Part shown: in pieces, positions 2,705-18,413 of the stretch
How positions within the stretch are numbered: position 1 is the stretch's first letter
Layout: each line of letters opens with the position of its first letter
Source: a virus
Length of the DNA stretch: 27,820 bases
IMG/VR virus record: IMGVR_UViG_3300032288_000513
Span: 1 to 27,820 of that record
Strand: one strand, 5' to 3'
Notes under the pieces: model-generated
Database searches by the model: none
Told to the model about the DNA's origin: nothing
Seen by the model: only the letters and a program-made list of their open reading frames with translations
Translations under genes and position numbers: made by a program

Positions 2705-3489
2705 CTCAGTTCCGTACATTACCGCCATTTGGAGGAGATCCTCGTCAGGTTTCTGAGGTTGTTCGTGGGGTTATGGACGGAAAGACCAATAATACGGGTC
2801 GGATTACGTTAGCCACAGGGAATGCCACGACAACTACCCTCTATGACGAGCGTATAGGCTTTGACAGCCTGATATTCTTGGTTCCAGTATCTAATGCTGC
2901 TGAGGCTGATTCAGCGCCTTATGGAGCGTTTCAAGACTCTACAGACCAGACTGCTGCTAGCACAACCGCAGCCTATGCTGTTGCACTAAACACAACAGAT
3001 TACTCTAACGGTATCTACGTTTCCAATACTTCGCGGATTAACGTAAGAAACTACGGGATATACAATATTCAGTTTTCGTTGCAGTACAAGAATACGACTA
3101 ACGATGGTCAAGACATAGACATCTGGTTTAAGAAGAACAATACTAATGTTGATGGATCAAATAGCCGGTTTCATATGCCAGCTAGAAAAAGCACTGGTGA
3201 TCCATCTCACTTAATTGCTGCAATGAACTTCTTTTTAGAAATGAATGCTGGTGATTACGTTGAGGTTATGTGGCGGACAACAGATACCGGCGTTTCTCTT
3301 GAGCAATATCCAACAAGTTCAAGTCCTACAAGACCATCGATTCCTAGTGCGATTATTACTGCTAGCTATATCGCTCCTTCAGCAACATCTAATGTGTATG
3401 TTTCTAGCCAGCAACAAGGCCAAGCAACAATATCGCATTGGTCAAACAATACGGCAGACAAAACCTATGGATACATTGTGGTGGGCTAA
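2701..3489 (+). CDS. virion structural protein, N-terminal adhesin-like segment plus jelly-roll-like C-terminal domain
   Basis: A 262-residue protein. The N-terminus (MTQFRTLPPFGGDPRQVSE) and the following TTTLYDERIGFDSLIFLVP are familiar from podovirus tail-associated proteins. Residues about 120-235 alternate beta strands (YGIYNIQFSLQYKN, DIDIWFKKNNT, MNFFLEMNAGDYVEVMW) in the manner of a C1q/TNF-like jelly roll, often found in phage adhesins. The C-terminal GYIVVG closes the last strand. A tail or baseplate adhesin role is inferred. Its stop codon (TAATG) overlaps the start of the next gene, and there is a 4-nt overlap with the gene before, so these genes are probably translated together. 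Confidence 0.55.
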   Translation: MTQFRTLPPFGGDPRQVSEVVRGVMDGKTNNTGRITLATGNATTTTLYDERIGFDSLIFLVPVSNAAEADSAPYGAFQDSTDQTAASTTAAYAVALNTTDYSNGIYVSNTSRINVRNYGIYNIQFSLQYKNTTNDGQDIDIWFKKNNTNVDGSNSRFHMPARKSTGDPSHLIAAMNFFLEMNAGDYVEVMWRTTDTGVSLEQYPTSSSPTRPSIPSAIITASYIAPSATSNVYVSSQQQGQATISHWSNNTADKTYGYIVVG

Positions 3490-3887
3490 TGGAGTTTAGG
3501 TACATACCTGTAGATAAACTTAGGGACTGGTGGCCTAGTGTCCGCCCCGGCTTAGATGAAATTAAAGGGTACAGCCCAGAAAACTGGATAGTAGAAGATG
3601 TGTACACAGACTGCTTTAACCAAAAAGCAATGCTGTGGGTAGGACTAGAGAATAACCACTTTAAGTGCTTCTTTATCCTGCAACCTATGGGCGAAACAAT
3701 GCACCTATGGGCTGCTTGGTCGTTAGAAAATAATTATCAAATTGTTGAATCTGGATTAAAATACATAAAAGACATCTGTAGTCAAGGCAATGTCAAATAT
3801 TTAACTTTCTCTAGCCATCGTCGAGGATGGCAGCGTAGGGCGAAACAACTCGGTTTCCGTCCTAAACAATGGATTTGCGAGGTGTAA
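3489..3887 (+). CDS. GNAT-fold protein of podovirus tail clusters
   Basis: A 132-residue protein. The start is ATG3489, overlapping the previous stop, rather than an upstream in-frame start at 3438 buried in the previous gene. The pattern PVDKLRDWWPSVRPGLDEI, then the strand KAMLWVGLE, the strand MHLWAAWS, and a C-terminal YLTFSSHRRGWQRRAKQLGF is that of small GNAT-like proteins next to virion genes in many podoviruses. The RRGWxRRAKxLGF end is the family's helix and last strand. Acetyl-CoA binding has not been shown for this type as far as I know, so an enzymatic role is uncertain. A structural or assembly role is equally possible. Confidence 0.6.
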   Translation: MEFRYIPVDKLRDWWPSVRPGLDEIKGYSPENWIVEDVYTDCFNQKAMLWVGLENNHFKCFFILQPMGETMHLWAAWSLENNYQIVESGLKYIKDICSQGNVKYLTFSSHRRGWQRRAKQLGFRPKQWICEV

Positions 3888-17420: not shown

Positions 17421-17654
17421 ATGAACCTGCACCACCTTTGCGATGGAAACCGTTGCAAACCTTCTTGCCCAAACTGTCACCCAGAGGTCAACCAATTGAG
17501 CAGCGAACCTTTAAAACCTGTACAAGTCGAATCAACGAAAAGCAGCTATTTCGGTACTAGATTCTGCCGAGGATGTAAGAAAAGCCGTACTGTTACTCAG
17601 TTCAAAGATAGCAACGTATGCAGGATTTGCACCTTGAGAGGTGTTAAGGTATAG
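17421..17654 (+). CDS. zinc-ribbon protein of unknown function
   Basis: A 77-residue protein with two cysteine clusters: LCDGNRCKPSCPNCH (residues 6-20) and FCRGCKKSRTVTQFKDSNVC then RIC (about 48-70), each a probable zinc site. KSRTVTQF is typical of small phage zinc-ribbon proteins. The start is ATG17421 with only a weak GAG. An alternative ORF starting at 17408 (50 codons, ATGA overlap with the previous stop) would be read in another frame but lacks recognisable sequence. A DNA- or RNA-binding role is inferred. Confidence 0.65.
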   Translation: MNLHHLCDGNRCKPSCPNCHPEVNQLSSEPLKPVQVESTKSSYFGTRFCRGCKKSRTVTQFKDSNVCRICTLRGVKV

Positions 17655-17667
17655 TTAAAGCAGTAAC

Positions 17668-17774
17668 ACACGCTTGGAGGCGTGTTTTGAGTAAGCCTTA
17701 GATGAGACTCTGCTGGTACTCACCAGTCCTCCAACACCGTTATGCGGTGAGAGTCTCACCTAGGGCTTTTTTTT
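17668..17774 (+). ncRNA. structured RNA candidate: hairpin, pseudoknot, branched stem and T8 tail
   Basis: Hairpin 1: ACACGC (17668-17673) pairs GCGTGT (17680-17685), loop TTGGAG. A long stem follows: 17693-17710 pairs 17751-17768 with one A.C mismatch and one G-U, extended by T17711-A17750. It closes two inner hairpins, CTGGT/ACCAG (17713-17717, 17722-17726) and CACCG/CGGTG (17735-17739, 17745-17749). The unpaired strand CCTCCAA (17728-17734) is exactly complementary to TTGGAGG (17674-17680), giving a 7-bp pseudoknot. A run of 8 T ends the structure (17767-17774), 12 nt before the next start codon. It could be an attenuator, a terminator or a ribozyme-like RNA, and no known class is proven. 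Confidence 0.6.
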
Positions 17775-17786
17775 ATTGTAAAAGAC

Positions 17787-18413
17787 ATGAAACTAAAGCC
17801 TAAAAATTGGGACAAGTTCCAACATTATCGGGATCGTTGCCCACCTTGGATCAAGCTACATCGAGACATATTAAACGATAGGATTTTTGCAGGTCTCCCT
17901 ATCGCTAGCAAAGCGCTAGCACCGTTACTTTGGTTATTAGCAAGTGAGTCAAAAGATGGTGAATTTGACGCTGCTAGCAACGAGCTAGCATTTCGCTTGC
18001 ACATTGCTATCAAGGATATTGAAGTAGGACTTAAGCCATTGATTGATAATGGCTTTTTTATTGATGCTAGCACTATGCTAGCACCTTGCTATCAACCTGC
18101 TATCCCAGAGAGAGAGGGAGAGAGAGAGACAGAGACAGAGAAGAAGTCTGTAGCGGTAGAAATTCCTGATTGGCTTGACGTTAACGATTGGAAAGATTTT
18201 ATTGCCATGAGGAAGAAGATAGGGAAACCTATGACTGATCGAGCAATGAAGATAATTATTTCTAAATTGGAAAAAATGAAAGACAAAGGAATTAGCACAT
18301 CTATGGCATTGCAGAACAGCATTGTTAGCGGTTGGCAAGATGTTTATGAACCTAAAGTTCAGCAAACAGTGCAACAAAAAGACTGGTGGATGAACGACAG
18401 GAGGATCAAATGA
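17787..18413 (+). CDS. phage replication initiator-like protein (lambda O / replisome organizer type)
   Basis: A 208-residue protein. The N-terminal domain (about 1-90) has CPPWIKLHRDILNDRIFAGL and LAPLLWLLASESKDGEFDA, the winged-helix pattern of phage replisome organizers that bind the origin. A charged low-complexity linker, EREGERETETEKK, sits at about 110-122. The C-terminal part (about 128-195; WLDVNDWKDFIAMRKKIGKP, TSMALQNSIVSGWQDVYE) resembles DnaT-like domains that contact a helicase or its loader. Next come a primase zinc domain and a DnaB-type helicase, as expected for an initiator. Origin-like repeats lie inside the gene. Only a weak A-rich ribosome site. Confidence 0.7.
   Translation: MKLKPKNWDKFQHYRDRCPPWIKLHRDILNDRIFAGLPIASKALAPLLWLLASESKDGEFDAASNELAFRLHIAIKDIEVGLKPLIDNGFFIDASTMLAPCYQPAIPEREGERETETEKKSVAVEIPDWLDVNDWKDFIAMRKKIGKPMTDRAMKIIISKLEKMKDKGISTSMALQNSIVSGWQDVYEPKVQQTVQQKDWWMNDRRIK
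17904..18146 (+). repeat. origin candidate: three GCTAGC pairs plus purine tract
   Basis: GCTAGC-N5-GCTAGC occurs three times: 17904-17920, 17973-17989 and 18066-18082. The spacing inside each pair is the same (11 bp repeat-to-repeat), so the six sites lie on the same helix face pairwise. Just after comes a purine-only tract at 18107-18129, continuing to 18146 with two C. The gene is the replication initiator. The same arrangement of iterons and a purine-rich strand inside the initiator gene is known from lambda gene O. Codon use (AS..LA repeats in the protein) may contribute. Confidence 0.5.

Follow-up and report, generated by a model that had tools for sequence, protein, structure and literature searches.

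A covarying RNA with two loop-junction pseudoknots ahead of phage replication genes, probably a new kind of RNA switch

The window analysed here is the whole stretch of 27,820 nucleotides of the IMG/VR virus record IMGVR_UViG_3300032288_000513, from a bacterial virus of freshwater. A gene for a replication protein (O-like/primosomal; 17787-18413, + strand) starts 12 nt after a run of eight T (17767-17774), and a short structured element lies immediately before it, as the earlier note on this DNA had described. A sigma-70-like promoter is predicted upstream of the element on the same strand (17626-17655), with TTTGCA at 17626-17631, an 18-nt spacer and TATAGT at 17650-17655; this -10 sequence shares bases with the stop codon of the preceding ORF (17421-17654). 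That ORF is small and Cys-rich (zinc-ribbon-like), and similar small ORFs are often found upstream of the promoter in relatives. Inside the replication gene, six iteron-like GCTAGCA repeats were observed at 17904-18104, partly with 11-bp spacing, and they likely mark an origin of replication within the O-like gene.

The element is about 110 nt long and consists of four stems and two pseudoknots. Its transcript is expected to run from about 17662 to the U-run (17662-17774, + strand), as indicated by our own covariance model, by covariation and by the z-score of the fold. Inspection of the window sequence located every strand that the earlier note had listed on the + strand, including the long stem with one mismatch, the two inner hairpins and the T8 run. 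Hairpin P1 (17668-17685) has 6 bp and a TTGGAG loop (17674-17679), which is the 5' strand of pseudoknot 1 (PK1). Its partner is CTCCAA at 17729-17734, and a seventh pair is possible between G17680 and C17728, TTGGAG(G) at 17674-17680 being the exact complement of CCTCCAA at 17728-17734. The long stem P2 has 19 nt per strand (17693-17711 and 17750-17768), and its sole mismatch in the window is A.C, between A17702 and C17759. Between the two strands lie a single unpaired G17712, hairpin P3 (17713-17726), U17727 and C17728, the 3' strand of PK1 and hairpin P4 (17735-17749). The second pseudoknot (PK2), which like the promoter-like site was absent from the earlier note, links TGAGTA directly 5' of P2 (17688-17693), the last A of which is also the first base of P2, to TACTCA in the P3 loop region (17717-17722).

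The fold energy of the window element corresponds to z = -5.8, and none of 200 shuffles was equally good. The element scores 117 bits with its own covariance model, the building set of which includes the window element itself, and a search with the covariance model revealed no second copy in the window. Rfam 15 gave no match at gathering or permissive thresholds, apart from weak chance matches, and neither a tRNA nor an Rfam family was found at the element; the Rfam search that the earlier note had proposed, for pistol and for all models, was thus negative. No published account of the motif was found in the literature searched, the coverage of which was incomplete.

Related phage contigs were fetched through the downstream replication protein and the helicase, and in about 30 of them the element recurs ahead of the replication operon. 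The covariance model R1 was built from 22 protein-fetched contigs, and the set was then extended with R1 and two DNA patterns, giving 158 distinct RNAs by a rule that ignores the U-run. Because the DNA patterns used to fetch many of these relatives prescribe parts of P1, P3 and the junctions, invariance at the prescribed bases is partly due to selection; the first alignment (A1) was gathered through flanking proteins and not by DNA patterns. Nearly all homologues come from IMG/VR or uncultured phage contigs. A DNA search of annotated phage records found no close isolate and a single clear copy, in the uncultured phage record MW202462 (L309). Four Burkholderiales genomes also contain the element, namely a Polynucleobacter sp. 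(L310), two other genomes from the same family and a third from the same order (L313, L314 and L315). Among sampled genomes it was present in 3 of 398, 2 of 399 and 1 of 369, with the Polynucleobacter genome counted each time; given this low frequency, it is mainly a phage element.

The earlier note had named covariation in related phages as the check on its fold, and the outcome clearly favours the structure. In the protein-fetched alignment of 22 sequences, 22 of 42 pairs show changes in both partners, and pairing holds in 99% of cells; no shuffle matches this, and slid partners pair at 37-48%. Among 105 diverse sequences, covariation was observed in 33 of 40 pairs, and 98.8% of cells pair, compared to 29-46% with slid partners. 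Every helix is supported by homologues, P1, P2, P3, P4 and PK1 in both alignments. Conserved unpaired nucleotides are nearly absent, besides the G, the UC and the P2 mismatch. P2 itself always has 19 nt per strand and a single mismatch, which in 135 of 141 RNAs falls at position 10 or 11, counted from the base.

Both pseudoknots are conserved as pairings rather than as sequences. PK1, the loop-junction pseudoknot of the earlier note, forms all six pairs in 141/141 RNAs and covaries through five versions (UUGGAG/CUCCAA, UUGGCG/CGCCAA, UUGGCA/UGCCAA, UUGACG/CGUCAA and UUGGUC/GACCAA). The same note had seen a Shine-Dalgarno-like GGAGG and an anti-SD-like CCUCC in these strands. Control of this kind was rejected: the loop has covaried to sequences other than GGAGG, and most relatives have UUGGCG/CGCCAA or UUGGCA/UGCCAA. 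PK2 usually reaches 6-7 bp in total and has 22 sequence versions; its four core pairs form in 141/141 parsed RNAs, as against 20% when partners are swapped between RNAs. The non-Watson-Crick pairs of P2 comprise 158 G.U and only 5 A.C, indicating that the functional RNA is the + strand. A minus-strand signal was rejected, since the weak model matches there merely reflect the long stem. Judged by these comparisons of sequences, the element is a conserved structured RNA, widespread and absent from Rfam.

The surroundings of the element are conserved as well. In 83 of 158 relatives, a promoter-like site that matches the consensus at 9 or more of 12 bases stands just before P1, compared to 8.9% of shuffles, and its -10 mostly lies 3-10 nt ahead of the hairpin. 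A run of at least five U at the same place after P2 occurs in 153/158 RNAs and is absent from the other five, and a same-strand start codon follows 0-19 nt past the U-run in 133 of 135 loci. These figures support the attenuator or terminator that the earlier note had thought plausible. Since there is no room for a promoter between the U-run and the ATG, transcripts from upstream promoters must cross the terminator. The downstream genes belong to many families, among which primosomal and replication-initiation proteins are the commonest; DUF1376 is found in 37 relatives, and about ten have a homing endonuclease gene of the HNH or GIY-YIG type. In three contigs (L104:3840, L083:81 and L087:4556), what comes after the same promoter is not the RNA but another sequence of ~100 nt, conserved among the three (GGGAATGGCTAGGGA..), and a DUF1376-like gene follows.

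In the prophage-like region of Polynucleobacter, the promoter is accompanied by three inverted-repeat sites of the AACA..TGTT type, which are putative operators, with a divergent HTH repressor gene nearby and replication genes downstream. From its sequence, this arrangement resembles that of an early lytic promoter. Three divergent copies (L313, L314 and L334) have no U-run and possibly form instead a short GGUCU..AGACC hairpin, which overlaps the P2 3' strand directly before the ATG of an HNH gene; such a replacement fits an output that may have changed in level without being lost. Contig L385 holds two copies of the RNA, at 2853-2956 (-) and 3624-3723 (+), 0.7 kb apart and pointing away from each other, each immediately ahead of an HNH endonuclease gene. 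Another divergent copy (L321:3496-3615), on a 63-kb phage contig, has a U-rich but interrupted tail and directly precedes an ORF resembling a Rha/antirepressor-type regulator.

Many of the phages with the element also contain a second, related class of RNA (class B), located ~3.5 kb downstream (L098:8499-8604, L095:4358-4460, L004:9343-9448, L091:8225-8329, L096:7928, L101:7947, L200, L201 and L233:6323); the covariance model search did not find it in the window. In class B, the P1 loop makes a kissing contact with that of a CGUG..CACG hairpin through strongly varying yet complementary sequences (e.g., UGUGGG/CCCACA, UAUCCGG/CCGGAUA and UAACGG/CCGUUA), and the RNA has a long P2, a U-run and its own promoter-like site. 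Directly after the class-B U-run comes a stretch of ~260 nt that is 77-98% conserved (L098:8601-8870, L004:9469-9719, L003:9296-9554, L100:8434-8684 and L108:8021-8274). This stretch has no evident gene, tRNA or Rfam match and is probably another phage non-coding RNA.

The geometry of PK2 bears on how the element may work. The PK2 strand adjoins P2 without a spacer and, in 129 of 141 RNAs, extends one base into it, while its partner loop sits at the far end of P2. Because the strand abuts and overlaps P2, PK2 and the full terminator stem should be mutually limiting: by simple A-form distances, which give a bound from ideal helices, PK2 formation needs the ~4-5 lowest P2 pairs to be open, and the exclusion rests on this ideal-helix geometry together with nested folds. 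The two sides are similar in estimated stacking energy (medians of -10.5 kcal/mol for PK2 and -9.2 kcal/mol for the lowest five P2 pairs), and both PK2 and lower P2 covary. When the P2 3' strand is left out, the minimum-energy fold contains PK1 in 124/141 RNAs and both pseudoknots in 92/141, whereas the complete RNA is predicted to adopt the terminator fold in 141/141, and likewise for the window element folded separately; true pseudoknots are beyond the reach of nested folding, and P1 and PK1 may simply be present together. An antiterminator pairing between GCUUG of P1 and YAAGC at the P2 base was also considered and rejected, as it is absent where the P2 base differs (L309, AGGG...).

Given that two states predicted to limit each other both covary, that one of them ends in a U-run and that the following gene has no room for a promoter of its own, the element has the anatomy of an attenuator, and its layout (promoter-like site, leader, stem with U-run, then gene) is that of intrinsic-terminator attenuators. 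We lean towards the view that it acts in cis, as a transcription attenuator with two states, within the 5' leaders of the early (replication) operons of phages. Transcription would start at about 17662. During synthesis of the first ~85 nt, the P1 loop would pair with the strand that follows P3 (PK1) and the P3 loop with the strand that precedes P2 (PK2), and these pairings would hold the P2 5' strand. Once the P2 3' strand emerges, the outer ~9-10 pairs of P2 could close fully only if PK2 opens. With P2 closed, a GC-rich stem would stand against the U-run and RNA polymerase would stop, leaving an RNA of ~110 nt; with PK1 and PK2 holding, either by kinetics or through stabilisation by a ligand, a protein or a polymerase contact, the polymerase would read through into the replication gene. 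Because the terminator fold is strongly favoured at equilibrium, read-through would need kinetics or an effector. More tentatively, the element might belong to a new class of RNA sensors, responding to a small molecule, to a phage protein or to the polymerase itself and so deciding whether the phage starts to replicate. It could then be a riboswitch-like or put-like gate before the replication initiator genes of freshwater Burkholderiales phages.

Known leader RNAs offer partial parallels. Transcriptional riboswitches and attenuators (e.g., fluoride and ZTP) place a promoter, a pseudoknotted fold and an overlapping intrinsic terminator before a gene, and the element shares with them a pseudoknot that would compete with the terminator stem; however, it matches no Rfam riboswitch and precedes phage replication and homing endonuclease genes. 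The CI RNA of P4 and the C4 antisense RNA are processed RNAs that pair antisense with a leader and so govern whether transcription ends before it reaches phage replication or antirepressor genes. The leader position and, in our proposal, premature termination before phage genes are common to both, but the conserved complementarity of our element is internal, and it has no C4 match in Rfam.

The alternatives differ mainly in what they make of the terminator and of the gene behind it. A stand-alone trans-acting small RNA of ~110 nt (a decoy, a sponge or a protein-binding RNA), with its own promoter and a leaky terminator on whose read-through the replication genes depend, is possible though rather improbable. 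The promoter-like site, the 5' hairpin and the 3' terminator would suit it, as would the engagement of nearly all loops in pairing, like in stable small RNAs; yet the same-strand start codon within 19 nt in 133/135 loci argues against it, no copy was clearly seen without a downstream gene, and a static RNA has no need of competing PK2 and P2. It is quite unlikely that the element is a 5'-UTR device for mRNA stability and translation, in which the 5' end is shielded by the compact fold and ribosomes (S1) bind to the U-run beside the Shine-Dalgarno sequence. The short, constant distance from U-run to ATG and an mRNA beginning with a hairpin would be expected in such a device, but a GC-rich stem against U6-9 is a textbook intrinsic terminator, and the similar class-B RNA of relatives precedes a conserved non-coding stretch and no start codon.

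An antiterminator like HK022 putL/putR, whose leader RNA would bind the elongating polymerase and make it resist the terminators of the early operon, is an unlikely explanation. Suppression of distal termination by put works through the zinc-binding domain of the RNA polymerase beta' subunit. The put RNAs lie close to early promoters, measure ~70 nt and form two stem-loops without a terminator of their own (PMC9378689). The element resembles them as a promoter-proximal structured RNA of phage early transcripts, and the head-to-head copies of L385 recall putL/putR (PMC9378689), two divergent copies occurring at times in both. It also lies directly downstream of a promoter, and the Polynucleobacter promoter with three operator-like repeats and a divergent HTH repressor gene is as expected of an early lytic one. 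However, its ~110 nt, four stems and two pseudoknots are not a ~70-nt two-stem RNA, the terminator is built into the fold here and not in put RNAs (PMC9378689), which have no such pseudoknots either, and the L385 copies each precede a homing endonuclease gene with no evident pL/pR pair; thus location alone is shared. A self-cleaving ribozyme related to pistol is very improbable. The pistol class is marked by ten highly conserved nucleotides and self-cleavage. Its published model comprises three stems and a pseudoknot of the P1 loop, with the cleavage site in a P3-P2 junction of strictly two nucleotides (PMC4604425). The layout noticed in the earlier note holds: a P1 hairpin with a ~6-nt loop pairing with a downstream junction strand, the order P1, linker, P2, pseudoknot strand, hairpin and P2 (PMC4604425), and an association with phages. 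Membership in the class does not, since the Rfam pistol model was not matched by cmscan under permissive settings (E ≤ 10), and the P4 and P2 3' strands abut, in the window as in the alignment, leaving no two-nucleotide junction for cleavage. Moreover, P2 is not short, a terminator ends the RNA, hairpin P3 with a second pseudoknot is added, and conserved unpaired nucleotides are nearly limited to those given above. The element is therefore pistol-like in layout only.

Taken together, a strongly covarying RNA class absent from existing lists, with two loop-junction pseudoknots, is common in environmental phages and sits exactly where replication genes get switched on. If the attenuator that we propose works as outlined, it would be a compact RNA switch in which a pseudoknot keeps the base of a terminator open, and it would provide a testable entry to replication timing in uncultured phages. 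The copy in Polynucleobacter sp., located in an apparent prophage, makes the element approachable in a culturable genus. Its sequence and setting suggest that these phages probably rely on an RNA switch of a new kind to begin their replication.
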